60,476 bases of DNA from a virus. The position numbers and the translations under genes are program-made. Shown piece by piece: positions 856-16,106 of this stretch (positions are counted from its first letter, which is position 1; each line of letters starts with the position of its first letter). Under the pieces are notes generated by a model, which worked only from the letters and a program-made list of their open reading frames with translations, did no database searches and had not been told where the DNA came from. The stretch is from the IMG/VR virus record IMGVR_UViG_3300021437_000022, positions 1 to 60,476 of that record, one strand, 5' to 3'.

Positions 856-866
856 GCTGCTGCCCC

Positions 867-1232: not shown

Positions 1233-1235
1233 GGT

Positions 1236-3491
1236 TTATACCCCTTGATGATTGCCGGTCTGGACGGCGGTTTGAAGTGCTGAGTTTGCTGCGGCCAATT
1301 CGTGCCGCGAACGTTCCTTGATCGCCGTCTCCGCAAGGGAGGCCTTGATCTGTTCGATGGATATCTTTTCCTGCAGCGCCAGCTTCAGGATCATCAGCTC
1401 GCGCTCTGCTTGCAACTCTTGCAAGCGCATCCGTTGATTCTGTTGGGCGATTTCCAATTCGCCTTGGGCCTTCGCCTGGGCCACCTGTACATCTGCCGCA
1501 TTGCGCGCGGCTTCCGATTGCGCCCGGATCGTTGCGGCCTGAATCCGCGGGTCTTGTGGCGCGGCCTGCTGCTGTGCCTTGGCGGCGTTCGCTTCGACTT
1601 CCTCGTCCGTCAACATGATTTCTGTCGGATCGATGTGCTGCGCCTTGAGCGAATTCTCGAACAGCTTTTTCAGGTTCAGCATCGGTGCAAAGACCGGGTT
1701 GGTCGCGAGCGCCAACATCTGCATATACGCTTGGTTCTGAATGTCCCGGATCAACAGGGTCGAACTACCGCGAGCGTCAACGTTGAAGTCGCCCTTGATG
1801 GACGAATCGTCGTTGTACATCATGTTGTAGTCGTAGTACCGGCGGATATGCGGCTTGGTGATGTAATCATCGAACTGCTTCACCAGACGCCGCAGCACCA
1901 CGTTCGCCGAATTCATGAGCATCTGCATGCCGCCCACCGTGTCCGGTGCGTTGCCTTGCTCGCCTTGCGTCAACTGCGGCACGCCGGTTTCGTCATCCAC
2001 GAACTTCAATGCCATGTCGATGATGGCCGACAACTCGCTTTGATGCGACGACACCTCGACCATGGTGAATGCAGACCGCACATCTGCGACTTCGTCGTTT
2101 GCGTACCAAATCTTGCGCGGCGTGACCGTCATCATCCCATCGGCCGGGGTGATCATGCCGTTCTTGATCACGATCTGCGGACCCGACGACACCCCGGCGT
2201 TGTCCATCAACTGACGCCATGCCGCATTGATGACGCTCTGCTGCCACTTCATGAGGCGCGGCACGCCCCAACCCCACACTTGTCCCGTGACTTTTTCCCA
2301 CGGGCAAATGTCGTACGGCAAGTCGCCGTTTTCTTGTGGGTTGAGGTACGCCTTCACCACGGTTGAATTGATCATGATCACGCAAGCCGACACACTGACC
2401 AACTCGTCATCATTGAGCATTGAGTCTTTCACACCCACCGTCTTCAGGTCTTCGGGGGACACCTCGCCCCAGTATTCCCAGACCTCGAACAGTTTGTCCT
2501 CGACATCCTTCGTCTGCTCGTCAAGGTCTTCCATGAGGGCGGATCGCTTCGGCCCTTCTTCCAACACCGCTCGCAGCGCTGTCGCGGAGTACCCTGGCTG
2601 CTTCGCCAGTCCCCGCACCAGCTTCGTCGTTTTCTTCTCGACCTCGAACACACCTTCGCCATCGTGCACGTTCTCACCGCACGCCGGGTCAGGGAACACC
2701 TTGCGCGGATCAACCCGGTATGACGCAGGCACCAGCTCTTCCTTGATCTCGATCACATGCACCGTTTGCCCCGAGGCATCGGTGTGAGGCGACCATGCAC
2801 GGCGAACGTGGTTCTCAACCACAGGACCCTTGACCACACCAGTGCCGAGCACCGCCATGTCATGGATCATCTTGCGAAGCTCGCCGTTGTAATCGGTCTC
2901 GTTCAACTGATCGTCGATGGCGTCCTGCATCCCTTCTGCAGCTTCCGTGCAGATGCGATGCACTTCGGCAGCGAGTTGCTTCTTCGTGACGGGTTGGCCA
3001 TCCTTGCCCACCATCGGCTGCCCCGTTGTCGGGTGCGAAGCCTGGGAAGCGTCCCTGCCCATGCGCGTCACATCGGCCATCGGGGTCGGTTGAATCCCCC
3101 AGTTGCGATCATCCGTCGGCAGCAAAATGTCAGATAGGCGCGCCTCTGCGGCATTGGTCTTCTGGCGCGTGATGCCGATGCGCACTGTCGAGCGTTGCGG
3201 CAAAGCCCCCTGGTTCGTGACCGGGTAACCTTGTTGCACCGAATCCATCATGTTCGCGACGCGACCCGTCGTGTTGTCGCGGCCGTGATACTGGTCCGTG
3301 TCTTCCTTCCACTGGCGATCGATGCCGAGCGCACGACGCGCTTTCACCCACTCGTCACGCTTCTTCGCGAGGCCTTGCCCGAACATCTGCAGTTTCAGCG
3401 CACGAGCTTCGTCCTGTGCCGCTGGGTCTGCATTGGCCGCGGAGTTGATATCCGGGTCAATCTCGTTCGTCGGGAAATCTGAGATGGCCAT
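1236..3491 (-). CDS. Portal protein
   Basis: The 751-residue product has the size and composition of P22-type podoviral portals and follows the large terminase directly, the usual packaging-module order. The middle carries the typical GEVS...KVTGQVWGWGVPRLM region (about residues 370-430). The last ~130 residues form a long Gln/Ala/Glu-rich helical barrel-like segment. The ATG at 3491 is chosen. An upstream in-frame TTG at 3500 overlaps the terminase stop and could be the true start, adding three residues. Role: dodecameric DNA-entry ring that docks the terminase and later the tail hub. Confidence 0.92.
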   Translation of the reverse strand: MAISDFPTNEIDPDINSAANADPAAQDEARALKLQMFGQGLAKKRDEWVKARRALGIDRQWKEDTDQYHGRDNTTGRVANMMDSVQQGYPVTNQGALPQRSTVRIGITRQKTNAAEARLSDILLPTDDRNWGIQPTPMADVTRMGRDASQASHPTTGQPMVGKDGQPVTKKQLAAEVHRICTEAAEGMQDAIDDQLNETDYNGELRKMIHDMAVLGTGVVKGPVVENHVRRAWSPHTDASGQTVHVIEIKEELVPASYRVDPRKVFPDPACGENVHDGEGVFEVEKKTTKLVRGLAKQPGYSATALRAVLEEGPKRSALMEDLDEQTKDVEDKLFEVWEYWGEVSPEDLKTVGVKDSMLNDDELVSVSACVIMINSTVVKAYLNPQENGDLPYDICPWEKVTGQVWGWGVPRLMKWQQSVINAAWRQLMDNAGVSSGPQIVIKNGMITPADGMMTVTPRKIWYANDEVADVRSAFTMVEVSSHQSELSAIIDMALKFVDDETGVPQLTQGEQGNAPDTVGGMQMLMNSANVVLRRLVKQFDDYITKPHIRRYYDYNMMYNDDSSIKGDFNVDARGSSTLLIRDIQNQAYMQMLALATNPVFAPMLNLKKLFENSLKAQHIDPTEIMLTDEEVEANAAKAQQQAAPQDPRIQAATIRAQSEAARNAADVQVAQAKAQGELEIAQQNQRMRLQELQAERELMILKLALQEKISIEQIKASLAETAIKERSRHELAAANSALQTAVQTGNHQGV

Positions 3492-3496
3492 GGTGG

Positions 3497-4963
3497 TCAA
3501 TACCCTATGTCAGGATCAAGCACCCCAAACGAGGGCGCCACGATATGTCGTTGCAGTTTCTGCGCGGCCACTGCCGTCGCTTCGTCTTGCGTCTTGGCGA
3601 ATCGTTTCATCATGAGCGCGTACCGCGTCGCCGATATCGCATCATCAAATTCTTTCACCAACTTGCCATCCTTGCGGTGGTACTGCCTGAACTCGTCGAA
3701 CCAGTGCGTCAGGTGAGAAAACACCTTGAACCGCCCCGTTTGCATCCGGTCCAGCATCTCGGCAACCCCGGCCTCCACACCACTACCGCCGTCATCGAAC
3801 GTGGCTCGGTCTTTCAGCATGTTCAGTCCGGCCGTCTTGTACTGGGCGGCGAGCGTCTCGCCTGAACCCTTGTCATGTTGCAAGCCGTCGTGCGGCCACG
3901 CCACAGGGAACCAATCCCCTTTCGCACGAATCACCATCGCATTCTCAGGGACGGAACTCTTGCGCTTGATGTACACGTCGTATACGTACACCGTATCAGT
4001 GTCACGGTCCCAGGCCAGCCACACGGCGGCGGTGGGGTGATCCCATCCAAAATCCAAACCAATGATCTTCGGCCAATGCTTCGGGATTGCGAAGCCTTGG
4101 ACCTTGATCCCTGATTCCGTGACAGGGAACACCGCACCCTCACCCATCATCGGTACACCGTTGGCGCGTGCCTCGCGCTCATGCTCCGGATAAGCCGCGA
4201 TGATGGCGTCGCGCTGTTCCTGGGTGTAGTGCAGCGCGTCTGCAATGGTCATCTGTGTCACATGCGTGCCTGCCGGCCGCTCTTGCATGAACCGGCGTAC
4301 CACCTGCGACATGCCAAGCAGTGGCGTGAAAGTGAGCGCCACAATGCCTTGCGTCGCGTTCGTCCGTGTCAGGCCTTCGGTGTACAGGTCGAGCGGTGGT
4401 TCTTCGTCGAACCACACATAATCCAACGTGTCGGCCTGCCACTTGGTGCGACCCTGGTCATAAGATTGAAGCTGTATCACTGAGTCATCACCACAGCGAT
4501 GCCGTACGACAATGCTTGCTACTGCATCGGGCACACCGGTTCGCAACGCCGTGTTGCGCAGTGCAACTTTTGGTATGGCGCCAGTGCCCCACTGGTCCCG
4601 CTCTTCAGGGGAACCGAGCAATAGGCGTTGCACGCCTTTCTTCGTAAGCTCTGCCGACTCCGACCCTGCCATGGCACGGATTGCGTACGGGAACTTGCGC
4701 CCTTTCCACCAGTCCGGATATACGCCTGTCGCGTGCATCGCCATCTCAAAGGCGCCGCTTAACGTCTTGCCGAGCTGATTACCTGCGGCGAACAGGCGCT
4801 CACGGTGATCTGCGCCTGCGGTATGAAACTCTTCCTGTTTGGGGTAGGGCTTGTACCCTGCCAGCCGATTCTCTTTCTCTCTGCGGTGGCGCGTCTCTAG
4901 CACCCGGAGTAGCTCGCGCCTTTCTTCGGGTGTCAGGGTTGTGAGGTCAACACTCGGGGTCAC
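3497..4963 (-). CDS. terL: Terminase large subunit
   Basis: The 488-residue product is the packaging ATPase/nuclease. The Walker A motif GNQLGKT is at residues 61-67 and Walker B VWFDEEPP ends the ATPase strand with D186 and E187. The RNase H-like nuclease begins at IGLDFGWDHP, with D305 as the first metal ligand. Start ATG at 4963 overlaps the small terminase stop by 4 nt (ATGA), which implies translational coupling. The large-terminase type supports headful or cos packaging of a podovirus but does not by itself tell which. Confidence 0.97.
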   Translation of the reverse strand: MTPSVDLTTLTPEERRELLRVLETRHRREKENRLAGYKPYPKQEEFHTAGADHRERLFAAGNQLGKTLSGAFEMAMHATGVYPDWWKGRKFPYAIRAMAGSESAELTKKGVQRLLLGSPEERDQWGTGAIPKVALRNTALRTGVPDAVASIVVRHRCGDDSVIQLQSYDQGRTKWQADTLDYVWFDEEPPLDLYTEGLTRTNATQGIVALTFTPLLGMSQVVRRFMQERPAGTHVTQMTIADALHYTQEQRDAIIAAYPEHEREARANGVPMMGEGAVFPVTESGIKVQGFAIPKHWPKIIGLDFGWDHPTAAVWLAWDRDTDTVYVYDVYIKRKSSVPENAMVIRAKGDWFPVAWPHDGLQHDKGSGETLAAQYKTAGLNMLKDRATFDDGGSGVEAGVAEMLDRMQTGRFKVFSHLTHWFDEFRQYHRKDGKLVKEFDDAISATRYALMMKRFAKTQDEATAVAAQKLQRHIVAPSFGVLDPDIGY

Positions 4964-5586
4964 AGGTCTACCGTGCGTGCTTCGTCGATGATGTGTTGAT
5001 TCATCGCCTTGCCGAGTAGCTGGCTTAGACGTTCGTCCACCTGTTCGTCAGTGAGCGCCACGGTCGTGTTTACTTGCACTTCGCGCTTCGCCTTGTACAC
5101 GTCGATAAGCCGCTCCACGACAAACTGCCGCGACTTAACGCGGAGTTCTGCCCGCTTGATCTCAGCCATGGATGCACTGCGTGGCACGTCATCGGCCAGA
5201 CTGATGATCTCCTCGGCGTAGGCCTGGGCACGGCGCCCGAGCGAATTCACGTACCTGGAGTACAGCGCCGGGTCAGAGTCGGCGAGGTCGTTAAACGCTT
5301 CACGGGTCAAGCCGTGCTTGCGTGTCGCTTCTTCGATCGTGGACCCTGCACCAATTTCACGGCAGATCGTCTCGAACCATTCCGCACGCTGTTCGATCGC
5401 TATGTCAGCGATGCGATCAAACAGGTTATTGCGCAGCGTTTCTTGCAAGCGTGCTTTCTTCTCTTTCTTCAACTGCGGCACTGCCCCCGAGGCAGGTGAA
5501 AGCGTGGTCAAGATATCGCCAGGGATGCCGCGCTTCGCCCGGTTCGGGTAACTCTTGCGCTGCTTGACAGGTGCTTCGTCGCTCAT
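4960..5586 (-). CDS. terS: Terminase small subunit
   Basis: The 208-residue product has a basic N-terminal tail (about residues 1-45) and a helix-turn-helix-like segment STIEEATRKHGLTREAFNDL near residues 80-100. A helical oligomerisation region follows (RAQAYAEEIISLADDV). This is the usual plan of small terminase proteins that recognise pac DNA and stimulate TerL. It overlaps terL by 4 nt, confirming the pair. Assignment rests on domain plan and context. Confidence 0.85.
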   Translation of the reverse strand: MSDEAPVKQRKSYPNRAKRGIPGDILTTLSPASGAVPQLKKEKKARLQETLRNNLFDRIADIAIEQRAEWFETICREIGAGSTIEEATRKHGLTREAFNDLADSDPALYSRYVNSLGRRAQAYAEEIISLADDVPRSASMAEIKRAELRVKSRQFVVERLIDVYKAKREVQVNTTVALTDEQVDERLSQLLGKAMNQHIIDEARTVDL

Positions 5587-5603
5587 GAGGTGTGGTGCTG
5601 CAG

Positions 5604-5792
5604 TTAAATCTTGCCCGGCAGAACGTTGCTCGTGAAGCCAGGGATGTTCTTCAGGCCACCAGTGCCCTTGCCCGCTTGCACGGGGTATCCATCGGTGGGG
5701 ATTTTCTGGGTCGGCACGTTCACGGTGCCGTCAACGACGCCCGCATTTTTCTGGGTGTTGCGTGATGCGCTGGGTTTGCTGTAGTTCTGCAT
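5604..5792 (-). CDS. Small hypothetical protein ahead of terminase
   Basis: The 62-residue product is Gly-, Lys- and Pro-rich and predicted disordered (for example VNVPTQKIPTDGYPVQAGKG). It has no Cys and no membrane segment. The ATG at 5792 is preceded by GGAGTTAAT on the minus strand, a good ribosome site. It is the second gene of the late transcript. Function unknown; small disordered proteins here may be minor head proteins. Confidence 0.6.
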   Translation of the reverse strand: MQNYSKPSASRNTQKNAGVVDGTVNVPTQKIPTDGYPVQAGKGTGGLKNIPGFTSNVLPGKI

Positions 5793-5811
5793 TTGATTAA
5801 CTCCGTAGTGG

Positions 5812-6288
5812 TTAGACTTGTGACCCTGGGGCTATCAGGCTTCGTGACGAACCCTGACGTTTCTTCGCTTCCTGCTTCCACATCGTGGCGGCGTCAGGCA
5901 CGGCATCACCCCCGCTCGTGCTCTGATCGCCACCGGCGCCGCTTGCATCGGAGTCATCCGACTCACCTGCATCGCTCGCCTCTTGCGCTTCTGCATCCGG
6001 GCCTTCGCTTTGCTCCGATCCGTTCAGACACTCGGTGATTTCTTCCATGGCTTCGTCCATGCTGTCGGTGTCTTCATCGCACAGGACTTGACCCTTCTGT
6101 GTCACCGTGACATGCACGCTGCCGTCAGTGCCGACATGGATGATCGCTTTGTAGGTGCCGGGCTGCGCTTGTGTCGCTTGTGTCACGCCTGCACTCGGGT
6201 CTTGTGCCGCACCTGGGTCGCTGCCTTGCGAGGCTTGCTGCCCCAGGTCGGCGCTGGACAAGCTGGACGGGGGAAAATTGCTGGACAT
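5812..6288 (-). CDS. Acidic low-complexity protein, first gene of late transcript
   Basis: The 158-residue product has a central beta-like segment (TYKAIIHVGTDGSVHVTVTQKG, about residues 45-65, split by low-complexity flanks) and a very acidic Ser/Asp/Glu/Gly-rich C-terminal half. The second of two nearby ATGs (6288) is chosen because GGAG lies 8 nt upstream; the ATG at 6294 is only 2 nt from it. It is the most promoter-proximal late gene, next to the divergent control region. Function unknown. Confidence 0.65.
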   Translation of the reverse strand: MSSNFPPSSLSSADLGQQASQGSDPGAAQDPSAGVTQATQAQPGTYKAIIHVGTDGSVHVTVTQKGQVLCDEDTDSMDEAMEEITECLNGSEQSEGPDAEAQEASDAGESDDSDASGAGGDQSTSGGDAVPDAATMWKQEAKKRQGSSRSLIAPGSQV

Positions 6289-6304
6289 GAGCATGGCTCC
6301 GGTT

Positions 6305-6392
6305 TTGTTCAATTCATTTGAATGTTCACGAAACATGAACGCGGTTTGTCCCGTGAACAAGTGGCGCATTTGCGAGGCGTCGCGCTTGTTCA
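6305..6392. promoter_or_regulatory. Cluster of TTGTTCA operator-like half-sites
   Basis: Visible sites are TTGTTCA at 6305-6311, the perfect inverted repeat GTTCA-n7-TGAAC at 6324-6340, GTGAACAAG at 6353-6361 and CTTGTTCA at 6385-6392. The last two form a further inverted pair. The same heptamer makes up the core of the 34-nt palindrome at 16073-16106, which argues for a shared DNA-binding regulator. The regulator is not identified. Confidence 0.6.
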
Positions 6393-6543
6393 GAAAATAG
6401 ACGAAATGGGGCGAGGCAAAGTGTAGCTTTACGAGCGTACAAACACAACACGCGCGCATTTGCAAGCTTTTTTCTGTAAGTGGAAACCCTCATTCTGTTT
6501 ACAATTGTTTACACATTTGTGTTGAAACCTAGGGTTTACCCTG

Positions 6544-6571
6544 TAGACAAAGCTGTCTGCAAAAGTAGAAT
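6544..6571 (+). promoter_or_regulatory. Rightward early promoter (sigma70 type)
   Basis: A -35 box TAGACA (6544-6549; five of six consensus bases), a 16-bp spacer and a -10 box TAGAAT (6566-6571; five of six) lie 37 bp before the ATG at 6609. The -35 overlaps an AGACA/TGTCT inverted repeat, so repression or activation at this site is plausible. It would drive the whole rightward block that contains the hammerhead elements. Confidence 0.65.
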
Positions 6572-6608
6572 GACTTATATCAACTCACCCCACCTGAAAG
6601 GAACTGAC

Positions 6609-6878
6609 ATGAACGCCGTTCAATACCGCAAAAAATGCATGGCCCTTGCCGGGCAAATTGCCGGGCAAATTGCCGCGATCCCCTTCGATGATCAATTCTC
6701 CGCCATCGTGAACATTTTCAAGGCAGCCACCACGTCGCCCGCCTTGCGCGCTGATGTGTTTTGGTTGCTTGATAACGAGCCGGGGCACTGGGCATCGCTG
6801 GGCCAGTGGCACGGTGCCTTGCGCCAAGTGCGCAACACTCCGAGCGAAGGCGAAAAGCTTTTCGCCTTGTTTGCGTAA
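6609..6878 (+). CDS. First early protein, unknown function
   Basis: The 89-residue product is mainly helical. Its start ATG at 6609 follows CCTGAAAGGAACTGAC, a TGAAAGGA ribosome-site pattern used by most genes in this block. A 12-nt tandem duplication (GCCGGGCAAATT twice) gives the repeated QIAGQIA segment at residues 15-21. No known family is recognised. Promoter-proximal early phage proteins often modify host functions, but nothing here shows which. Confidence 0.7.
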   Translation: MNAVQYRKKCMALAGQIAGQIAAIPFDDQFSAIVNIFKAATTSPALRADVFWLLDNEPGHWASLGQWHGALRQVRNTPSEGEKLFALFA

Positions 6879-6911
6879 TCGATTTCGTTCCTAACCCTGA
6901 AAGGAAATACC

Positions 6912-7412
6912 ATGTTCTCAGACTTTTCCGATCCGCTACCCTTTTCACGCACAAGCCCCGTGGGTCAACCCTTGCCTGTGCGCACCAAATTTTGCGAGGC
7001 GTTCATTGCTCATCCTGATCGTTATTATTCGGAACCGGATTGGGCGATTGTGTCCGCGCACAGAGCGAGCAACACAGAGGAGCAAAACCGGTTTGCGCGC
7101 AACACCTTTGCCGCGTACCTGCGCATGCACAATTACGCCTTCTCTTCGGTAGTGGGTCACTACAACGGGGTCCGCGAACACGCGTTTTTTATCGTGTGCT
7201 CTGCATACGGTGCTCGCCACTTCGGCCGGGTGCTCGGGCAAGAGTCAGTGCTGACGCACGAGGGTTTGGTTTGGACCGATGGCCGCAACCAAGACCCGGT
7301 GCCGTTTAATCATCTCGCACCGGCAATCCTGGGCGACGCCGCCAGGGAGGAACAAAATTTTACAACTTTCATCGAATCTGGCGTGCACTGGTCAGCAGCT
7401 CTGTTATTCTGA
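6912..7412 (+). CDS. Early protein, possibly DUF3293-like
   Basis: The 166-residue product carries NRFARNTFAAYLRMHNYAF followed by GHYNGVREHAFFIVCSAYG and then GQESVLTHEG. A GxYxGxxExxFxV pattern with a downstream GQESVL is reminiscent of the DUF3293 family of small phage and bacterial proteins; I call this similarity tentative. Start ATG follows TGAAAGGAAATACC. Its stop is 8 nt before the first hammerhead element, so cleavage would leave this message with a hairpin-capped 3' end. Confidence 0.75.
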   Translation: MFSDFSDPLPFSRTSPVGQPLPVRTKFCEAFIAHPDRYYSEPDWAIVSAHRASNTEEQNRFARNTFAAYLRMHNYAFSSVVGHYNGVREHAFFIVCSAYGARHFGRVLGQESVLTHEGLVWTDGRNQDPVPFNHLAPAILGDAAREEQNFTTFIESGVHWSAALLF

Positions 7413-7420
7413 CTGCACCA

Positions 7421-7472
7421 GGACGAAACCGGCGCGAGCCGGTCTGCAGGTTGTGCCTGCACTGACGAGTCC
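7421..7472 (+). ncRNA. Hammerhead ribozyme, type II, copy 1
   Basis: All conserved hammerhead positions are present. Stem II is GGAC (7421-7424) with GUCC (7469-7472), open at its outer end. GAAA follows it. Stem III is CCGGC/GCCGG closed by a GCGA tetraloop, with the A15.1-U16.1 pair. The cleavage triplet is GUC, so predicted scission is between 7444 and 7445. Stem I is UGCAGG/CCUGCA with loop UUGUG, followed by the core CUGACGA. The open stem II defines the type II permutation. It sits between two early genes in transcript sense. Confidence 0.93.
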
Positions 7473-7500
7473 AGACGATTCACCTTTTTGGTGTATTACC

Positions 7501-7788
7501 ATGCGCGGATATGAAGACATTGTGAGAGGCAACGCGGCGGCGCAAGCCTTGGGCATCGAATTGCCGACCGGCGCCATTGGCACGACGGCGCTTGAATCGA
7601 AGGGCCACAGCTCGGCGCAAGGCGGCCTGCGCGGCCACAGCATCGGTTCGGATTACCCGTTCACCGTCACGCGATTTGGCGATCGGTATCAGGCCTACCA
7701 TTGCTTGCACCCCGAGCAATCGGGCCCCGTAGTTGACACCTACTCCGAAGCCGCGGCTTACATTGCCTCCCAGCACCTCCACGCCTGA
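7501..7788 (+). CDS. Early protein between two hammerhead elements
   Basis: The 95-residue product begins MRGYEDIVRGNAAAQ and contains a short beta-rich unit (FTVTRFGDRYQAYH) that ends in a helix. No family is recognised. Unlike its neighbours it has no TGAAAGGA ribosome site. The 28 nt between copy 1 of the ribozyme and the ATG hold only a small CACC-ttttt-GGTG hairpin. Its translation may therefore depend on the RNA made by ribozyme cleavage or on an unusual initiation site. Confidence 0.65.
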   Translation: MRGYEDIVRGNAAAQALGIELPTGAIGTTALESKGHSSAQGGLRGHSIGSDYPFTVTRFGDRYQAYHCLHPEQSGPVVDTYSEAAAYIASQHLHA

Positions 7789-7791
7789 CCA

Positions 7792-7843
7792 GGACGAAAC
7801 CGGCGCGAGCCGGTCTGCAGGTTGTGCCTGCACTGACGAGTCC
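7792..7843 (+). ncRNA. Hammerhead ribozyme, type II, copy 2
   Basis: Over its 52 nt this is identical to copy 1: stem II GGAC (7792-7795)/GUCC (7840-7843), GAAA, stem III with GCGA tetraloop, GUC cleavage site (predicted cut between 7815 and 7816), stem I with UUGUG loop, and CUGACGA core. It starts 3 nt after the stop codon of the upstream gene and ends 24 nt before the next start. Identity to the other copies stops at the ends of the fold. Confidence 0.93.
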
Positions 7844-7867
7844 AACCAACCCTTGAAAGGAAACACC

Positions 7868-8182
7868 GTGAACATGAATTCTCTCCCAAATGCCAAGGTG
7901 CGCAGCGCCGTAGAGGGGCGCCTCACATTCTGCAACGCCAATGCCACGCTCTACGGCAAGTGGTTTGATGACGGTCAAACGTACGTCGTTTTTTCGTACG
8001 GCTCGCATTGGCCCTTGTTTCTCTATCGCGCGGGCTTGTGGTACGAGAACAAGCAACGTGCTAGCACCACGACCACGCGTCATGCGACCGTTGCCCGTCC
8101 GCGCTCGTGCCTTCCGATTCTCGACGCCACCACAGAATCCTTGTTCGTGTTGATCGCTTCCGCTCGTGAGGTAGCAGCATGA
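7868..8182 (+). CDS. Early hypothetical protein, GTG start
   Basis: The 104-residue product is read from GTG at 7868, 6 nt after GAAAGGA; an ATG at 7874 is possible but is spaced less well. The middle (TLYGKWFDDGQTYVVFSYGSHWPLFLY, about residues 28-54, split by turns) is beta-rich and aromatic, and the C-terminal third is basic and Thr/Arg-rich. It follows hammerhead copy 2 and overlaps the next gene by 4 nt. No family recognised. Confidence 0.7.
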   Translation: MNMNSLPNAKVRSAVEGRLTFCNANATLYGKWFDDGQTYVVFSYGSHWPLFLYRAGLWYENKQRASTTTTRHATVARPRSCLPILDATTESLFVLIASAREVAA

Positions 8183-8478
8183 GCACATACCACACTCCGG
8201 GCCCGTGGGCTGCTTACGGCCAGACCGTCATGGCGGTTTCGCATGGCAAGTGGTTCACCATTTGCCACGTTAATGGCACGAACCACACAAAGGAAGGCAA
8301 TGAAGCAAATGCCGCATTCATTGCTTCCGCACCCAAGATCAAGAAGCAGCGGGACGAATTGCTTGCTGCGCTTGATGCAATAGTGACTGCTGTTTATAAC
8401 GAGGAGGCGGTATCGCCGTGGTCGCCCGAGTACCGCAACGCACTTACCGCAATCGCCAAGGCACGGGGGCAAGCATGA
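8179..8478 (+). CDS. Early hypothetical protein (DUF-like phage protein)
   Basis: The 99-residue product begins MSTYHTPGPWAAYGQTV and has NGTNHTKEGNEANAAFIASAPKI followed by a helical tail. The HTPGPW opening with a later N-A-x-x-I-A-x-AP pattern is widespread in phage proteins of unknown function. It overlaps the gene before it and the gene after it by 4 nt each, so the three are translationally coupled. Confidence 0.8.
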   Translation: MSTYHTPGPWAAYGQTVMAVSHGKWFTICHVNGTNHTKEGNEANAAFIASAPKIKKQRDELLAALDAIVTAVYNEEAVSPWSPEYRNALTAIAKARGQA

Positions 8479-8591
8479 GCCGCTCCGAGAAAGTGTGGAA
8501 CGCAATCGCCTGCATCTGTTTCGTGTTGCTGCCGTTCGTGTTTGCGTGGCTCGGCATGTTGCTTGCTGAAATTGCTCGCAACCCAATCTGA
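8475..8591 (+). CDS. 38-residue membrane peptide
   Basis: The product starts at an ATGA overlap with the previous stop. It is a basic N-terminus (MSRSEKVW) followed by a single hydrophobic helix (about residues 9-31) and a short polar end. The size, overlap and membrane segment support a real gene. Function unknown; small early membrane proteins often act in exclusion or depolarisation, which is only a possibility here. Confidence 0.6.
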   Translation: MSRSEKVWNAIACICFVLLPFVFAWLGMLLAEIARNPI

Positions 8592-8601
8592 AAGGTTCGT
8601 C

Positions 8602-9087
8602 ATGAAAACAATCCAAGTCTCTGAAGCGTCGGGCACAGTGCTCGACTATCTGGTGGCGAAGGCGCAAGGTTTTGAAGTGGAAATTCGCACAGGTGAACAG
8701 CGCTACGCCGATCTCATGGCGTCAAACCCTGATACTGATCTCGACTTCGCCGAGGTTATACGCTTCGGCAAACCGCGCCTGACTTACAACAATCCTGTTC
8801 CCGGCATGTCATTGCCTCGTTTTTCGTCTTGCTGGACGCAAAGTGGACCGATCATTGATCGAGAAGGCATCTTGCTGCGCCCGCTGCGCCGTGCCGGGCA
8901 TGCACTGGACGGGCAGTGTCTGGCGATGTACGACGGCGGAAACACAGGGTCCGTGGTGCAGTGGATTAAGAATAAAGATTGGAGGCACCACTATTTGAGC
9001 GGTCCCACGTCCCTCGTGGCAGCCATGCGTTGCTTCGTGGTGCGCAAATTGGGCGACACTGCTGAAGTGCCCGACGAATTAGTTTGA
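8602..9087 (+). CDS. DUF2591 family phage protein
   Basis: The 161-residue product has the family hallmarks in order: VLDYLVAKAQGF at residues 12-23, a middle segment FSSCWTQSGPIIDREGILLRP, and a C-terminal GPTSLVAAMRCFVVRKLG. DUF2591 proteins occur across proteobacterial phages, and the conserved WVAKAxG/PTxxxAAMRC pattern is diagnostic, although their function is unknown. The ribosome site is TGAAAGG. The stop codon is 2 nt from hammerhead copy 3. Confidence 0.85.
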   Translation: MKTIQVSEASGTVLDYLVAKAQGFEVEIRTGEQRYADLMASNPDTDLDFAEVIRFGKPRLTYNNPVPGMSLPRFSSCWTQSGPIIDREGILLRPLRRAGHALDGQCLAMYDGGNTGSVVQWIKNKDWRHHYLSGPTSLVAAMRCFVVRKLGDTAEVPDELV

Positions 9088-9089
9088 CA

Positions 9090-9141
9090 GGACGAAACCG
9101 GCGTGAGCCGGTCTGCAGGTTGTGCCTGCACTGACGAGTCC
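9090..9141 (+). ncRNA. Hammerhead ribozyme, type II, copy 3
   Basis: The fold is the same as in the other two copies. The one difference is a stem III tetraloop of GUGA instead of GCGA, which keeps the GNRA class and so preserves structure. Stem II is GGAC (9090-9093)/GUCC (9138-9141); the GUC cut is predicted between 9113 and 9114; stem I and CUGACGA are unchanged. It starts 2 nt after the DUF2591 stop and ends 20 nt before the next start. Confidence 0.93.
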
Positions 9142-9161
9142 AACCATTGAAAGGAATCACC

Positions 9162-9599
9162 ATGTTGCGCTACATCGCCCCCGGCGTGGAGAACGAGCCC
9201 GAATACTACGGCACCCTCCAAGCCATGCCCAATCCCCAATTTATTCCGGCCTGGGTTGTCCACACGTTCACGTTTTCGTGTGGCGCCCCGGTCTGGGTCG
9301 GACACTCCGGCAACGTGCCGGAGGATCGCACCTACACCCTCACGCTGGCCGAAGTGGACGAGATGATCCAGGCCAAGGGTGACAGCGTGGTGCTTTCGCG
9401 CATCGTGCTGTCCGGATTGAATCGCCGCGAGAAAGCCGCCGCCGCGATAGCGCCGGCAACCGAAGCGTGGCTTGCCGCGACGCGTGATTTTGGTGCTTTC
9501 TCTGGCGAAGAGTCCGCGGCCTGGGACGCTTTCGAAAACGCGCAGATCACCTATCTGGCTTTCTCGGAACGCGCACGCGGAGAATCGACATGCGCCTGA
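9162..9599 (+). CDS. Early hypothetical protein downstream of hammerhead copy 3
   Basis: The 145-residue product begins MLRYIAPGVENEPEYYG. It has a beta-rich first half (VVHTFTFSCGAPVWVGHSG, YTLTLAEVDEMI) and an Ala-rich helical second half. The start follows TTGAAAGGAATCACC, which lies directly after the ribozyme, so the 3' cleavage product keeps its ribosome site. No family recognised. Confidence 0.75.
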   Translation: MLRYIAPGVENEPEYYGTLQAMPNPQFIPAWVVHTFTFSCGAPVWVGHSGNVPEDRTYTLTLAEVDEMIQAKGDSVVLSRIVLSGLNRREKAAAAIAPATEAWLAATRDFGAFSGEESAAWDAFENAQITYLAFSERARGESTCA

Positions 9600-9859
9600 C
9601 CAATTACCGCGATGGCCGGGTGTTTGGCGCCTACGCTTCCACCAAACACCATGACCCAATGTACTCGACTGCAGAACTGGCGATTGTGCTGTTCACCACG
9701 ACGCGCAGCCTGACGCATCTGATCCGCCTGCAAACCGTAGCAGGCAACCCACCGCCGCCGTGCTGCACCCTGGCCACCTGCGGAGGCAAGGTCAAGCGCT
9801 ATCCTTTGCACGCCTTCACGGCGTGGTTCGAGTCAACCAAGGAAATATCATGCAAGTAG
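9590..9859 (+). CDS. Early hypothetical protein
   Basis: The 89-residue product overlaps the previous gene by 10 nt and the next by 10 nt. It has a basic C-terminal half with a PPPPCCTLATCGGKV stretch holding three Cys, which could be a metal site. No family recognised. The tight overlaps and shared strand support expression; the start is less certain because no strong ribosome site precedes 9590. Confidence 0.55.
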   Translation: MRLTNYRDGRVFGAYASTKHHDPMYSTAELAIVLFTTTRSLTHLIRLQTVAGNPPPPCCTLATCGGKVKRYPLHAFTAWFESTKEISCK

Positions 9860-10065
9860 ATCGCATTGCATCTTGGGAACAAATCGCCGCCCTGGCCCAC
9901 GATCTGCGGGTCTCGACGGACGCCGCCCAATACGTGCACCACGAGATGATCCGACACGGGTACTTCGACACGGCGCTCGTGCCTGCGCATCTGTGGGAGC
10001 GCTGGACCCGAGGCGACCGTTTCCCTGTCCCCGAAAGTTTCTACACCCGCTACCGCCTCGACTGA
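9850..10065 (+). CDS. Small early helical protein
   Basis: The 71-residue product starts at ATG 9850 after AAGGAAATATC, a good ribosome site. It is helical, with an aromatic tail (HLWERWTRGDRFPVPESFYTRY). The segment IAALAHDLRVSTDAAQYVHHEMI reads like a small helix-turn-helix, but I would not assign DNA binding on that alone. Confidence 0.65.
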   Translation: MQVDRIASWEQIAALAHDLRVSTDAAQYVHHEMIRHGYFDTALVPAHLWERWTRGDRFPVPESFYTRYRLD

Positions 10066-10075
10066 GAGAACCCTC

Positions 10076-10468
10076 ATGAACAACACTGCCCATCACCCCG
10101 CGCTCGACAAGCACCTGACTGCGCAGGTGCACAAGTATCTCGCCATGCCCGGCACGTTCGGCATGGTCACGGGCCGCGACCGCATGCGCGAACTGGACAT
10201 CACGTTTTTTGGCCCGGCCTGGGACTTCCGATCATTGGACGAAGCGAAGCATCACCAGATTTCAAAAGGCAATGACATCTTGTCGGAGTTTCTGAAGGCG
10301 CGAAACCGCACACAGGAAGCGGTGGCCTTGCTGGAAGCCAACCCCGGCATGTCCGCCCGGGAGGCTTCGCGGCGGTGCGGTGTCGATGTGATGGCGGTGC
10401 TGCGCGCCTTGCGCATTTCCGACAAGCCGCGATGCCCTCACTGCGGCTCACTCATTCGTCATTCGTAG
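10076..10468 (+). CDS. Putative HTH and zinc-ribbon protein
   Basis: The 130-residue product has a helix-turn-helix-like segment (SAREASRRCGVDVMAVLRAL, about residues 92-111) and a C-terminal CPHCG knuckle. That combination suggests a small DNA-binding regulator. It ends the rightward block and its last 10 nt overlap the 3' end of the convergent Q-like gene, so the two transcripts would be mutually antisense at their ends. Function is inferred from motifs only. Confidence 0.7.
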   Translation: MNNTAHHPALDKHLTAQVHKYLAMPGTFGMVTGRDRMRELDITFFGPAWDFRSLDEAKHHQISKGNDILSEFLKARNRTQEAVALLEANPGMSAREASRRCGVDVMAVLRALRISDKPRCPHCGSLIRHS

Positions 10469-10977
10469 GACCGGCGCCCGAGTCGTCGCATCACCTGGGC
10501 GTCTGTCTCAAACTCTTTTTGCAGTATCAGGCCGCGCACCCACTTGGCGGCCTCGTTTCTTCCAGGCATGTCAGGCAACGCCCGTTCTCCCGTCCCGCCA
10601 CAGTGTGGGCAATCCGCTTCCTGCAGCACCTGCACATTGCCGTCGATGGTCAGGTGCCCTCTTCCCCCGCACACCTTGCAGTTGCAATCCAGGTAGTGAT
10701 CCAGCACCTGCATCACCACCTTGCGGGCGTCCTGCCAATTCACAATAGGCGCGTATTTGCTGCGCCGCAGCTCTTTCTCCAGCAGCTCGACGGTGATCTG
10801 CGCCACGCTGCCGTCCTGCGCGTACTTCAATCGCCACAGCGCCGCGCCCAATGGGTTTTTTGCCCCCGCCATGCCCATTGCCCGTACCACGTCAATGTCC
10901 GCAACGTCGTCAAGGTTGTCGGCCTCTCCGAGGTCGCTCGATTCCATTGCACTCGACATCCTTTTATTTCCGCTCAT
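10459..10977 (-). CDS. Zinc-finger protein resembling late antiterminator Q
   Basis: The 172-residue product carries a DnaJ-like zinc module: C98-x-C100-x2-C103GGRGH, then C123PHC126GGTG. Helical segments lie on both sides. This arrangement is found in lambda Q-type and related phage antiterminators. It is the last gene of the leftward early operon, a common position for a late-gene switch. If correct, it would act on RNA polymerase near the control region at 6289-6608. Alternative: an unrelated phage zinc-finger protein. The start ATG is preceded by AAAAGG. Confidence 0.65.
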   Translation of the reverse strand: MSGNKRMSSAMESSDLGEADNLDDVADIDVVRAMGMAGAKNPLGAALWRLKYAQDGSVAQITVELLEKELRRSKYAPIVNWQDARKVVMQVLDHYLDCNCKVCGGRGHLTIDGNVQVLQEADCPHCGGTGERALPDMPGRNEAAKWVRGLILQKEFETDAQVMRRLGRRSYE

Positions 10978-11062
10978 TCCGTCGCCTTTTCAATGCCGCC
11001 CCGGCTTGATTCCTGGGGCCTGGGAGCCGCGCAATCTGTTTTCTGGTAGGTGGATGCCTCCT

Positions 11063-12481
11063 CTACCCTTTCAACGCCTCCAGGAGCCCGTTTTGCAAGT
11101 TGCCTTTCCCGGCCAACCGCTCCGGCAGCTTGTCTTCAATCGTGTCGGCCGCACACAACACCCTGACCAGCACATGCCCGGCCTGGGTGCCATGCCGGTG
11201 CAGCCGGGAATTCAATTGCTTGAAGTGATCCAAGTCATGCGGGCATCCGTACCAGACGACATTGTGCCCCGCGCCCTGTAGCCCGTCCAGGCCGTGCCCG
11301 CCTTCCTTCGGATGCATGACCAGCACAGGGAACTTCCCTGCAATCCAGTCCTGCAGCCGATCGATGCGCCCGGCCTTCTTGCCCAAGCGTTTCAGGATGG
11401 CTTCACGGTCCGCCGTGTAGCGATAGCCGACGATGATTCCCCGTTCCGTGTTTTCCACGATTTCCTCCAAGGCGTCCAGCTTCGCCTCGTGCACCACCTG
11501 CGCCGTTTTCTCCCCGTCCTCGGTCTCGACAATCACGCGACCGTTTGCGATCTGCAACAGCTTCGCCAGCTTCGTTCCGGCTTGCGCCGCGGTCAGGATG
11601 TTGCCGTTCACTTCCGCCACCAGCTCGCGCTTGAGTTCGTCGTGCAGCACCTTGGCATGGTTCGGGATGCGCACCCATTCCGGCGTGATAATCAACTCAG
11701 GCAGCTCCAGCCAATCCTCTTGCCGAAACGCAAAACAAATATCCTTGACGGCGTCAATCACGCTTTCCTTGTCGCGCATTTCCCACATCGGCACGGTGCG
11801 GTTTCCCACCTCGATCGTGTGGCTGACGCGCATGAACCGTTCCCGGAATTCCTTCTTGCTCTTTCCCAGGCGCTTGCCTCCGTCCAACAACCCCACTGGC
11901 GAGTAAATATCCTCCAGGCCATTCGCCGCCGGGGTTCCGGTCAACTCCACGAATCGATTCAGGAAAGGGCGCACGGCACGCACGGCCCTGAACACCAGAT
12001 TCTTCGACGACAACAGGCTGCGCGCTTCGTCGATGGCCAATCCGTCATAGGGGAAATTGACCCCGTAGGCCTTGACCAGATGCGGAAACTGTTCATTGCT
12101 CACCAGATGGATCGTTTCCGGCATGCCTTGCAGGCGCTTCTTCGTCCCGGCCCGATCCTTGATTGTCAGCATCTTGCGCGCGGGGTCTTTCGGGTGTTGC
12201 ACCCGGTGCAGGTGGATATCGTCCGTATCCACGATTCGCCAGTCCAGGTGCTGGGTGTGCGCCCACTTGGCAATTTCCTTGGGCCATGTGAGCTGAATCA
12301 CCCGCTTGGGCGCCACAATCAACCACCGCGTGGTCTCGAACCTGTCTTCTTGCAACGCGACGATCGCCGACAACAGACTCACGCTCTTGCCAAGTCCTGG
12401 GTCCGCCCACAAGGCGCAGGCCTCCAGGTCCAGCACGGCCTGCGTCATGCGCTTCTGATACTCCCTCGCCGTGTATTCCAT
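11063..12481 (-). CDS. SNF2/DEAD-like helicase
   Basis: The 472-residue superfamily 2 ATPase has Q-motif-like EYQKRM near the start, Walker A DPGLGKS at residues 27-33, APKRVIQLTWPKEI (motif Ia), DEAR at 151-154 (motif II) and ELTGTPAANGLED (motif III). It ends with GGHGLDGLQGAGH (motif V) and QLNSRLHRHGT (motif VI). An upstream in-frame extension to 12676 lies in another gene; ATG 12481 overlaps the VRR-NUC stop as ATGA. Phage SNF2-like helicases of this type travel with VRR-NUC nucleases in replication modules. Confidence 0.92.
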   Translation of the reverse strand: MEYTAREYQKRMTQAVLDLEACALWADPGLGKSVSLLSAIVALQEDRFETTRWLIVAPKRVIQLTWPKEIAKWAHTQHLDWRIVDTDDIHLHRVQHPKDPARKMLTIKDRAGTKKRLQGMPETIHLVSNEQFPHLVKAYGVNFPYDGLAIDEARSLLSSKNLVFRAVRAVRPFLNRFVELTGTPAANGLEDIYSPVGLLDGGKRLGKSKKEFRERFMRVSHTIEVGNRTVPMWEMRDKESVIDAVKDICFAFRQEDWLELPELIITPEWVRIPNHAKVLHDELKRELVAEVNGNILTAAQAGTKLAKLLQIANGRVIVETEDGEKTAQVVHEAKLDALEEIVENTERGIIVGYRYTADREAILKRLGKKAGRIDRLQDWIAGKFPVLVMHPKEGGHGLDGLQGAGHNVVWYGCPHDLDHFKQLNSRLHRHGTQAGHVLVRVLCAADTIEDKLPERLAGKGNLQNGLLEALKG

Positions 12482-12771
12482 CAGGCTTTCATCCTTGCCA
12501 GAAACAAATCGACGCCTTCGCGTGTGTCGGCCCAACCCGCCACGCACCCCATGCGTGTCAGCCGCTCGATCCACCAGCGCTGCAGCCTCTCCGGCTTCTT
12601 TCCTGTTTTCTTCAGCTCGATGAATCCAATGCGGTTCGGCGCAATGATCACCAATCGATCCGGCAGTCCGTCCCACCCCAGCTTGATCGTGAATCCCTTG
12701 CGCCGCTTGACCTCCTGCCCAAGGTAATCCTCCAGGTTCAGCTCTTTCGCCCCGATGCTCAGGTCAATCAT
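12481..12771 (-). CDS. VRR-NUC domain nuclease
   Basis: The 96-residue protein is little more than a PD-(D/E)XK nuclease fold. E20 lies in the first helix, D38 in GLPDRLV, and E52-x-K54 in GFIELKK, followed by a helix (RWWIERLTRMGC) and a final strand. It is coupled to the helicase by a 4-nt overlap. Its ATG at 12771 overlaps the stop of the paralogue; GTG at 12780 is an alternative start. VRR-NUC proteins cleave branched DNA, consistent with recombination-linked replication. Confidence 0.92.
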   Translation of the reverse strand: MIDLSIGAKELNLEDYLGQEVKRRKGFTIKLGWDGLPDRLVIIAPNRIGFIELKKTGKKPERLQRWWIERLTRMGCVAGWADTREGVDLFLARMKA

Positions 12772-13205
12772 CGCAGCCACGCGCCATCTGACTGCCTGCG
12801 CATCCGCAGCTCTCTCGGCACACGCCGATACCCCGCCTCCGGATACGTGGCCTGATTGAGCACCCAGTCAATTTGCTCTTTCGTGCTGACCCATTCCGCC
12901 CACACCCCATTTTCCGCCAACGTGCTGATCCACCGCTCCACCCCCACCCCTGGCGAATATCCCGGCGCCACCAACTCCAGCATGACGGCCATTCCTCCCG
13001 GCGAAGGCAGCACCAGATATCCCGGCAACCCCTTCTTCCGTTTACGCTCTTTCTCGGCCCCCTTCCATACGACCTCCCCGCCAATCTGGGGCTGATCCTT
13101 CACGGCCTCGATCCGGATCACCCCTCGCACCCCTTTGCACAGGTGCTTCTCCAGGAAATCGATCTCGGCCTTCCTTTGCGCCGCTGTTAGCTTGATTCGT
13201 GACAT
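12768..13205 (-). CDS. Degenerate VRR-NUC paralogue (probably inactive)
   Basis: Residues 59-117 of this 145-residue protein align closely with the adjacent nuclease: GLPGYLVLPS with GLPDRLVIIA, MLELVAPGYSP with FIELKKTGKKP, then RWISTLAENGVWAEW with RWWIERLTRMGCVAGW. The catalytic D is replaced by G62 and the catalytic K by V79; the E (E77) remains. I infer a duplicated, catalytically dead copy that may bind DNA or regulate its neighbour. No good ribosome site precedes ATG 13205. Confidence 0.75.
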   Translation of the reverse strand: MSRIKLTAAQRKAEIDFLEKHLCKGVRGVIRIEAVKDQPQIGGEVVWKGAEKERKRKKGLPGYLVLPSPGGMAVMLELVAPGYSPGVGVERWISTLAENGVWAEWVSTKEQIDWVLNQATYPEAGYRRVPRELRMRRQSDGAWLR

Positions 13206-13254
13206 AAGATTGAGAAAATGTAGTGGAAAATTGAAATGTACATGAAAACCAACG

Positions 13255-13442
13255 AATTTGAAATAGTAGTGCCTTTAACGTCCCGTCCGTCAGCATATCG
13301 TAGAGTAAACGCGTGAGTCTCTTAAAACAGCCGTATAGAAAATCAGCAAGTGATTTTTTTTTTACATGTAGTCACACTCTCTCTCTTTCTACTATACAGA
13401 GTGCTGACGGACGGGACGTTAAACCCTTCACTATTTCAAATT
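13255..13442. repeat. Nested inverted repeat, possible origin or structured RNA
   Basis: The 41-nt arms at 13255-13295 and 13402-13442 match at 13 outer bases and 22 inner bases, separated by a 6-bp mismatched block. A GTATAG/CTATAC pair lies inside the 106-nt spacer, which also holds a run of ten T. The element fills the gap between the primase-helicase and degenerate VRR-NUC genes. It could be a replication origin, a cruciform operator or a small non-autonomous element; no coding capacity is evident. Confidence 0.75.
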
Positions 13443-13470
13443 TACTGTTTTTTGATCGAAAAAACGTACC

Positions 13471-13510
13471 CAAAAAACAAAGGCCGGAACAGTTTTCACT
13501 GCTTCCGGCC
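13471..13510 (-). terminator. Intrinsic terminator after primase-helicase
   Basis: On the minus strand GGCCGGAA pairs with TTCCGGCC (13503-13510 with 13482-13489), extended by CAGT/ACTG around one bulged base. TTTGTTTTTT follows. It lies 25 nt past the stop of the primase-helicase gene and isolates it from the downstream nuclease-helicase operon. Confidence 0.88.
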
Positions 13511-13535
13511 CCTGATGAATGGCTAATGTCGCGTG

Positions 13536-16049
13536 TCAGTACAGGTCTGTGCTCTCCAAATCCGCTGCGCGCTGCCGGCGCAACTGTTCTTCCTTCAACT
13601 TTTGGTCGTTGAACATGTCAAACACGGCCGGATTGATCGCCCACGCCGTGCCATCCGCGAACAGGAAGCCACGTTTCGCGCTACGTCGCGCCGACACATC
13701 GGCCACCAACCACCCTGCCGAGTGCAGTGCGTTGATGATTTTCCCCTGTTCCCGCGGCTCCAGGCGCACCCATCCGGTCATGTGTCGGTCCAATTCCCGG
13801 CGTGTCAGGGTTGTGTCGAGGCTTCCATCTTCCTTTCTGTCACGCTGCAGCACCATGGCGCCGATGTTGCGCAGGTGCTTCTTCAGGCTCATCTGGTCGT
13901 TCTGGTCGTAGAAGTTGCGCGCGTGCCCCATGAGCCAACCCACGAATCGGCAGGCTTGTGTCATGGTATCCAGGTTGATTTCCGGGGGGACATCCTCACC
14001 GAGAAAGTTATCGGGGTCCGTATCGGCCCAGGCCCACTTCGCCAGATGCATCGCACAAGCCACCCTGGCCAAGTGCGTCTGCCACTTGTAGAGCCACATC
14101 GCCATGTGTGAGGAGGTTTCCGTGTCGGCCAATCGGCGGGCTCGGGCCGCGCTCTCGTCGAACAGGCGTTGTGCAGATTCGTCGAACCGAATGGTCATCT
14201 CGGGCAGGTTGCGCAGGCGCGGGAACATGGCGCCGTAGTGTGACAACTGTGCCATGTCTTCGTTGATGTGTTCCCCGGAGGGACTGCCGCCACGTAGCAC
14301 CACGGTCAGGAAGCGCGCCATCATGCCGTCCTCGGCGCCGGGCACCAGGACGCGCTGCGCCACCTCGGGTTGCGTGCACCCCATGACGCTCAGGGCGAAC
14401 CTGGGGATGGAGTGCACGCCGGACTTGCGCCCCACGGTGAACGGGTCGCCGTTGTAGCCTTGCAGCAGGTCAGCGCGGTCCGAGGAGGCGCCCACCTTGT
14501 ATTGGCCCATGCCACAAATCCAACCCGACAATTCGTCCGCCTTGAACAGCACGCTGCGGTTTGGGTAGGCGGCGGTGCAGGCGTCGAAGATGTATTCGGT
14601 GGTCGAGTTGTTGATGATGCTGGGAGTGAAGACCGGTTTCTTGCTGAGCAAGACCAGCTTGTCCTCTTTCGAGGCGAACTTCAGATCATCGTTCCACTGT
14701 GCCATGTTCGAGGCGTGGCGCGCGGCTTCGGCTTCGTGGATGGTGGCGAGAGGGGATAGCGGCGCATTCAGAATTGGCGTCTTGCCGATGCCGGAGCCGC
14801 CGATCGCCACGCACCACAGGTTACACGAGGTGGTGAAGCTGGGTTCTCGGCGCGCGGGGTTCACTCTCACATGGAGCGGGATGGCAGAGGCGACGGCGCC
14901 CACGGCGAAGAGTAGATAGCCGGCCGGGTCCTGGCCACGCACGGTGGCGTAGTGATCGGCGAAGCGGTGGAGGAAATCCGGGGCGCTGTCGGGCTTGACT
15001 TCGGGGGGCTCTTCCGTGGCCCAAAGGTCTACGGGTTCCGACAGGTCTACGTGGGGCTTCTCGAACCGCTCCAGTAGCGCCATGAAATCGTCGTGAGCCG
15101 ATGGCCCCCATCCTGTTTTCCTGGCGCGCCAGAAGATGGAGGCGGCGGTCACGAGTTTGCGGTCGGGGGTGAGACTGCCGTCTTTCACGTAGGCCCAGAT
15201 GCGCTCGTCGAAGAACTCGGCGTCGAACTTGTCGCTGCGCGCGCTGAACTGTTCCGCCAGCGCCTTGCCTTCGTCGGAGCCGTTGGTGGCGTAGTGGATG
15301 CCGAAAATGCACTCCAACCACTCCGCATAGGGCAGGCCTTCCCCGTCGTTCGGGATGCTCGCGAGCGCATCTTGCAGGACGTGCAGGTCGTCGGTTGCCG
15401 GAGCGGGTTGTGGTGGTGTTTTGACTTTCTGCGTTTTCGGCACGTCCCGACTGAAGGCAAACTCGAACGGGGCGTCGCGGGTCTCAGGCTCGAACATGAC
15501 CGGGCAGATCGGTACGGACTTGCCTGCGAGCGGGAGGACAAACATGTTTCCCCACTCACCTTCTCCTACTTTGTCTTGCTTCGGGAACACTTCGACTTGA
15601 GCGTTCACGAGCCCCTTCGTGCCGTTGGACAGGTAGGCTTCGGAGAGTAAGGCGGTCAGGGCTGCACGTACGTCGCGCGCTTCCTGCGGGGTTTTCCACA
15701 AGAAGATCATGTGGGCGCCACTGCCCCCGCTCGATCGAAAACAGGTGGGGATGAGGCCCATGGCGTATGCGAAACCGGACAATTGCTCCAGGGTTTTGCA
15801 TACATCGGCGAAGGAGAGTTCACCTTTGTGGGAGTCCAGGTCGAGCAAGCCGACGCGGGTGGTGGAGGTGCCTGCATCCATGGGATAGGCGCCGTACTGG
15901 TTGCTGCCGTGGGCGTGGTTGTGGAGGGCTTCGGTGTCGAGCGGGAGTCGCTGCGCCCGTGGCCCATCCTTGAACTTCTCGGCCCGCACGTCGCGACGAA
16001 CGCGGTCAGTGAGGGGAGACAGCCTTGCAATGATCTGTTGCGTCGTCAT
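13536..16049 (-). CDS. Primase-helicase (AEP primase + PriCT-2 + DUF3987)
   Basis: The 837-residue protein has three parts. The N-terminus is an archaeo-eukaryotic primase with DLD at D70/D72, SSGGSGAHMIF and VEVFPKQD (about residues 60-190). A PriCT-2 helical domain follows (LQDALASIPNDGEGLPYAEW to FWRARKTGW, about 250-340). The C-terminus is a DUF3987-type P-loop ATPase with GGSGIGKT at 417-424 and ADELSGW as Walker B. It makes primers and unwinds DNA for the phage polymerase. A 34-nt palindrome lies just upstream. Confidence 0.9.
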   Translation of the reverse strand: MTTQQIIARLSPLTDRVRRDVRAEKFKDGPRAQRLPLDTEALHNHAHGSNQYGAYPMDAGTSTTRVGLLDLDSHKGELSFADVCKTLEQLSGFAYAMGLIPTCFRSSGGSGAHMIFLWKTPQEARDVRAALTALLSEAYLSNGTKGLVNAQVEVFPKQDKVGEGEWGNMFVLPLAGKSVPICPVMFEPETRDAPFEFAFSRDVPKTQKVKTPPQPAPATDDLHVLQDALASIPNDGEGLPYAEWLECIFGIHYATNGSDEGKALAEQFSARSDKFDAEFFDERIWAYVKDGSLTPDRKLVTAASIFWRARKTGWGPSAHDDFMALLERFEKPHVDLSEPVDLWATEEPPEVKPDSAPDFLHRFADHYATVRGQDPAGYLLFAVGAVASAIPLHVRVNPARREPSFTTSCNLWCVAIGGSGIGKTPILNAPLSPLATIHEAEAARHASNMAQWNDDLKFASKEDKLVLLSKKPVFTPSIINNSTTEYIFDACTAAYPNRSVLFKADELSGWICGMGQYKVGASSDRADLLQGYNGDPFTVGRKSGVHSIPRFALSVMGCTQPEVAQRVLVPGAEDGMMARFLTVVLRGGSPSGEHINEDMAQLSHYGAMFPRLRNLPEMTIRFDESAQRLFDESAARARRLADTETSSHMAMWLYKWQTHLARVACAMHLAKWAWADTDPDNFLGEDVPPEINLDTMTQACRFVGWLMGHARNFYDQNDQMSLKKHLRNIGAMVLQRDRKEDGSLDTTLTRRELDRHMTGWVRLEPREQGKIINALHSAGWLVADVSARRSAKRGFLFADGTAWAINPAVFDMFNDQKLKEEQLRRQRAADLESTDLY

Positions 16050-16072
16050 GAAAAGTCTCGGTGGGAAGGAAA

Positions 16073-16106
16073 TTCGCCTTGTTCACTGTGCAGTGAACAA
16101 GGCGAA
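16073..16106. promoter_or_regulatory. 34-nt perfect palindrome upstream of primase
   Basis: The two 16-nt arms TTCGCCTTGTTCACTG and CAGTGAACAAGGCGAA flank a 2-nt centre. It sits 24 nt upstream of the primase-helicase start, where an operator would act. Neither strand has a following U-tract, so it is unlikely to be an intrinsic terminator. The TTGTTCA core is the same as in the control region at 6305-6392. Confidence 0.75.

Follow-up and report, generated by a model that had tools for sequence, protein, structure and literature searches.

We show by sequence analysis the identity, structure, placement and conservation of three type II hammerhead ribozymes between genes of a viral record of 60,476 nucleotides (the whole stretch, here called the window). 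The three elements probably cut early transcripts to give the downstream genes short, hairpin-headed 5′ leaders, with activity, cleavage in the cell and benefit being predicted. The same hammerhead form occurs in more than 100 other viral contigs, and its precise, repeated placement predicts one role: the making of mRNA 5′ ends.

Three complete type II hammerheads between genes

The elements that a sequence-only reading had placed at 7421–7472, 7792–7843 and 9090–9141 are all there on the plus strand (Table 1). Their locations stand, whereas the 52-nt boundaries required correction: because a conserved A precedes stem II, each element begins one base further upstream (7420, 7791 and 9089) and is 53 nt long. 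The order in all three is GGAC, GAAA, stem III (CCGGC, loop, GCCGG), GUC, stem I (6–7 bp), CUGACGA and GUCC, where GGAC is the 3′ strand and GUCC the 5′ strand of stem II. Every conserved position of the core (CUGANGA, GAAA, the A15.1–U16.1 pair and the NUH triplet) is intact in all three copies. Loops close stems I and III while the 4-bp stem II is open, as that reading had described, and the pairs are backed by covariation in relatives. Elements 1 and 2 are identical across 55 nt, and element 3 has one loop base changed. The hammerhead motif pattern finds three matches in the window and none in 100 dinucleotide shuffles.

That these are intergenic type II hammerheads oriented in transcript sense is borne out by an independent covariance model, by compensatory changes and by matching places in a related phage; as judged at this level, the three are confirmed as complete type II hammerheads, with activity predicted. 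They also lie outside genes, as had been claimed: the upstream stops end at 7412, 7788 and 9087, and the next starts are at 7501, 7868 and 9162. The further statement that type II is rarer in nature than the other forms proved wrong for bacteria, where it is as frequent as types I and III (PMC3088659); all three types were found among the phage contigs here.

Without flanks, the 53-nt element takes the hammerhead fold (−24.2 kcal/mol, z −2.5). When about 20–30 nt of flank are included, stem II survives in the minimum-energy fold of element 2 only, and elements 1 and 3 adopt alternative minimum-energy folds that disrupt it. The SAM-lyase-like and NinX-like neighbours make it plausible, from their sequences, to call the surroundings early genes.

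Table 1. Hammerhead elements, adjacent genes and predicted leaders in the window
Feature	Position	Strand	Evidence or remark
Gene upstream of element 1, S-adenosylmethionine-lyase-like	6912..7412	+	PF23780, 26.7 bits (cut-off 28); product 45% identical to gene in same place of related phage L149
Type II hammerhead 1	7420..7472	+	Includes conserved A 7420 before stem II; predicted cleavage C7444/U7445
Predicted 56-nt 5′ leader of 7501 gene after cleavage	7445..7500	+	Sequence; no clear Shine–Dalgarno seen
Gene between elements 1 and 2, 95 aa, function not assigned	7501..7788	+	78% identical to L149 15081–15368 (sense coordinates)
Type II hammerhead 2	7791..7843	+	Includes conserved A 7791; predicted cleavage C7815/U7816
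Predicted 52-nt 5′ leader of 7868 gene after cleavage	7816..7867	+	Shine–Dalgarno-like AAAGGAAA at about 7856–7863
Gene downstream of element 2, no assigned function	7868..8182	+	ORF list; 42% identical to L149 15445–15798
Gene upstream of element 3, NinX-like	8602..9087	+	PF10765, 45.6 bits
Type II hammerhead 3	9089..9141	+	Includes conserved A 9089; predicted cleavage C9113/U9114
Predicted 48-nt 5′ leader of 9162 gene after cleavage	9114..9161	+	Shine–Dalgarno-like AAAGGAA at about 9150–9156
Gene downstream of element 3, no assigned function	9162..9599	+	66% identical in L149, hammerhead before gene kept there

Covariance models and compensatory changes

A search of the window with Rfam cmscan at the curated threshold returned no match. 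At E ≤ 10, the sole hammerhead matches were to RF02276 and fell at exactly the three elements (31.3, 30.7 and 28.6 bits for elements 1 to 3; E 0.0009–0.005), all of them below the curated cut-off of 37 bits. A covariance model scoring the elements below threshold had been named as grounds for refutation, and with RF02276 this is technically the outcome; yet an independent covariance model, built from 20 equal-length elements none of which was taken from the window, scores them at 72.3–73.3 bits (E 5e-19 to 1e-18) and elsewhere in the window returns only one meaningless fragment (E = 3.6). In the alignment of that model, 99.7% of pair cells are paired and 97 pair cells are changed on both sides, with double-sided changes in 13 of 16 pairs across the 20 sequences. 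The covariation score is 0.82, compared with 0.15 in shuffles, and none of 500 shuffles was as high.

RF02276 models a pseudoknotted subclass, unlike the window elements, and the curated model misses most of the subclass to which they belong. In 20 element-rich loci, two hammerhead matches reached the Rfam cut-off, both of the long-stem-I kind described below; an orthologous element of the related phage L149 does clear it, at 38.4 bits. Annotation relying on Rfam therefore undercounts these ribozymes, since the model misses much of a common subclass.

A subclass with a conserved A and U +7

The wider sample comes from an IMG/VR scan that fixed the core, left stems and loops free and gave at least 119 stretches. 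Among the matches listed, 111 of the 119 hold at least one full type II hammerhead with stems I, II and III paired, and at least 179 type II elements lie outside the window and its pieces, several per contig in many cases (the raw script totals of 115 stretches and 189 elements include the window and three window pieces). The loci collected, being the matches listed, are a sample of what the collection holds. Conservation of GAC/GTC in stem II is uninformative, because the search pattern fixed those bases.

Non-redundant elements among the matches listed split into two groups. The larger (149), which includes the window elements, has a stem I of 16–19 nt and a stem II mostly of 4 bp; the smaller (30) has a longer stem I and a stem II mostly of 3 bp. 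In the larger group 144 of 149 elements have an A directly 5′ of stem II, 146 of 149 have a U as the seventh base past the cleavage site (U +7), and 144 have both; the search pattern contained neither. All three window elements have the A 5′ of a 4-bp stem II as well as U +7.

The two groups also differ in the pairing of loop I with the 3′ tail, which was assessed over whole groups rather than the window copies alone. Pairing of at least 4 bp occurs in 28 of 30 long-stem-I elements (permuted mean 18.2) and in 25 of 149 of the short-stem-I group that includes the window (permuted mean 28.4). Pairing no better than with permuted tails led us to reject a pseudoknot as the tertiary contact of the window's group. 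The conservation patterns suggest instead that the active fold of the window elements is probably held by a contact between U +7 in loop I and the A just 5′ of stem II. Overlap with TAG or TAA stop codons was rejected as the explanation of the conserved A, which is kept in 53 of 57 and 30 of 31 elements without stop overlap. An A–U swap was likewise set aside as covariation proof of the contact, the two cases (L040 and L045) being too few.

Placement between stop and start codons

With starts and stops called by a simple rule (open frames of at least 50 codons) rather than by a gene finder, 93% of 141 subclass elements from IMG/VR, among the matches listed, are followed by a start codon at a distance of at most 60 nt, compared with 45% at random positions and 38% in antisense. 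The distance from element to start has a median of 22 nt (interquartile range 16–28), and the distance from the end of the upstream stop to the element has a median of 1 nt, both for the same 141 elements among the matches listed. Stop codons share bases with the start of the element in 58 of 146 elements among the matches listed. The genes that follow show no dominant family on functional enrichment; DUF932 proteins, AAA ATPases and single instances of ArdA and ArdC were seen. Type I and type III hammerheads in phage contigs stand at nearly equal distances from the next start, which points to leader formation.

Probable leader formation and its alternatives

In the mechanism that we propose, each ribozyme would fold upon synthesis within an early polycistronic phage transcript and cleave after GUC, at C7444, C7815 or C9113. 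The upstream RNA piece would have the stem III hairpin at its end and bear a 2′,3′-cyclic phosphate, and the downstream piece would begin with a 5′-OH and carry the stem I hairpin, the remainder of the 48–56 nt leader and the start codon. A gene boundary would in this way be turned into a defined mRNA 5′ end by the ribozyme itself, without a host enzyme, and the benefit may be that the stability and expression of each gene are set separately. RNase III sites make comparable mRNA ends in the early transcript of T7, by way of a host enzyme.

For tandem hammerheads of prophages, cleavage has been demonstrated both in vitro and in E. coli, and hammerheads have already been proposed to process long phage transcripts (PMC3088659). 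In a halovirus, an early transcript has its 5′ end at most 3 nt from the hammerhead site and 13 nt before the start codon (PMC3088659). These precedents favour leader formation by self-cleavage, which we regard as the probable role. Counting against it are the alternative predicted folds of elements 1 and 3 when flanked, the lack of a clear Shine–Dalgarno in the leader of the 7501 gene, the turnover of elements between relatives, and the near-identity of the window copies, which could stem from recent duplication instead of selection. In the same published study, 4 of 18 consensus-conforming hammerheads tested had no activity (PMC3088659).

Turnover is seen in the comparison with L149, a related phage (terminase 83%) that carries six elements, three of them at places matching those of the window, where stems I and III differ in sequence yet are re-paired. 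Element 3 is kept there with its downstream gene despite a different upstream gene, and in one gap where the window is without an element, L149 has one. A counterpart of the NinX-like gene was not found in L149, and the only relative found for the protein at 8542–9087 was on a second contig of the same virus. Elements have therefore been gained and lost, at least one travels with the gene that follows it, and it follows that no single gene strictly needs an element.

Such gain and loss would also be expected if active ribozymes spread mainly as portable repeats that aid swaps of gene cassettes, with cleavage tolerated or secondary, an alternative that we consider unlikely. It would fit the near-identity of the window copies and the stretch from element 2 to element 3, where the genes differ in part from those of L149 and DNA similarity returns at the elements. 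However, core and pairing, neither of which a DNA recombination site needs, are kept in more than 100 diverse contigs and stem sequences are not; moreover, the elements lie in sense orientation at a constant spacing from the following start, which points to an RNA function.

Less probable again is regulated switching, in which upstream translation, a ligand or a protein would control cleavage and so tune downstream expression. In the 58 of 146 elements whose first bases overlap the upstream stop, a ribosome terminating there would sit over stem II and the GAAA strand, and the alternative flanked folds of elements 1 and 3 would suit a switch; the window elements, however, lack any conserved additional domain, any aptamer and any large loop, and the overlap may be mere genome compactness. 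That the elements are decayed or inactive hairpins resembling hammerheads, or a motif that arose by chance, is very improbable: the RF02276 scores under the curated cut-off are outweighed by cores intact in three of three copies, by the empty set of 100 shuffles, by E values of about 1e-18 with the independent model and by conservation with compensatory change.

Cultured Streptomyces phages and other hammerhead types

Type II hammerheads are also present in the cultured Streptomyces phages Issmi (L343), Lizz (L344) and Salutena (L345), at 8 to 11 per genome. In the stretches examined, they stand on one strand in gaps between small genes and carry no annotation, occupying on the coding strand 10 of 11 gaps of at least 60 nt in Issmi, 10 of 13 in Salutena and 8 of 15 in Lizz; Rfam adds one further element in Salutena, in the gap 45430–45568. 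Lizz elements resemble those of the window and are matched by the window-subclass model (E 1e-7 to 1e-14), whereas those of Issmi and Salutena belong to the pseudoknotted subclass and are detected by RF02276, nearly all at or above the Rfam cut-off. A search of open-access papers found no literature on hammerheads in Streptomyces phages. Since these three phages are cultured and sequenced, the role of hammerheads is directly testable in them.

Type I (at least 91) and type III (at least 22) hammerheads were found in phage contigs by a script scanning for closed stem II (loci L223–L342). Cleavage of a type II element leaves, topologically, a closed hairpin on both new ends; the idea that type II was chosen for this property was rejected, as types I and III are also common and similarly placed. 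We raise tentatively, as a reading somewhat short of probable, that the window's subclass is a natural hammerhead held by a single U–A contact and that, in many phages, hammerheads would punctuate nearly every roomy gap of early operons and give most early mRNAs ribozyme-made 5′ ends.

Relation to known hammerheads

Already published are the hammerhead class and its type II permutation, its occurrence in phages, its clusters between genes and the idea of transcript processing: in 2011 Perreault et al. (PMC3088659) described type II hammerheads and their clustering among the genes of prophages. The window elements share with those prophage and bacterial type II hammerheads (PMC3088659, RF02276) the permutation, the catalytic core, the location in intergenic phage DNA and the presence of several copies flanking single genes or short blocks. 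They differ in having a stem II of 4 bp and a stem I hairpin of a mere 17 nt, in the absence from their group of the loop I/3′ tail pseudoknot and in scores under the RF02276 cut-off. HHphage of haloviruses HF1 and HF2 (PMC3088659) likewise stands a few nucleotides before the start of an early phage gene and has a mapped transcript 5′ end at its cleavage site, but it is a core variant with insertions, belongs to an archaeal virus and is described as one element. The role of hammerheads in bacteria and phages has been called an open question (PMC6155905).

The closest parallel to the putative U–A contact is a minimal hammerhead engineered to carry U +7 and a stem II capped by GUGA (O'Rourke, Estell and Scott 2015, recounted in PMC9217987); PMC9217987 did not reproduce the reported gain of the minimal hammerhead in its own constructs. 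The likeness lies in U +7 and in the A that immediately precedes GGAC; the construct is engineered with a closed stem II, whereas the window elements have an open stem II and a single-stranded A. In the construct, the A directly 5′ of the GGAC strand is reportedly the last base of the GUGA loop. With respect to the open-access literature searched, three results are new: the measured placement, the near-complete filling of gaps in cultured phages, and the resemblance between the subclass and an engineered single-contact hammerhead.

Other features of the record

Among isolated phages, we found no near relatives at the DNA level for window 1–20000, and the nearest terminases, about 60% identical, are those of Rhizobium phages. 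A direct terminal repeat of 131 nt, 99% identical, occupies 1–131 and 60346–60476; given this repeat and a contig (L126) that spans the junction, the record represents a closed genome of about 60.3 kb.

Directly before the ATG at 7501, where a Shine–Dalgarno would be, is a hairpin (CACC-UUUUU-GGUG, 7481–7493) that is able to pair with the 5′ flank of element 1. Between the helicase and primase genes lies an inverted repeat (13245–13307 and 13390–13452; 63-nt arms, 78% complementary, 82 nt apart), a possible origin or terminator. A 44-nt direct repeat (22649–22692 and 22939–22982, 93% identical) ends at or near the ATG of two neighbouring small genes, and several families of imperfect repeats with spacings in multiples of 3 lie at 55637–56458 within the open reading frame 55427–57178.
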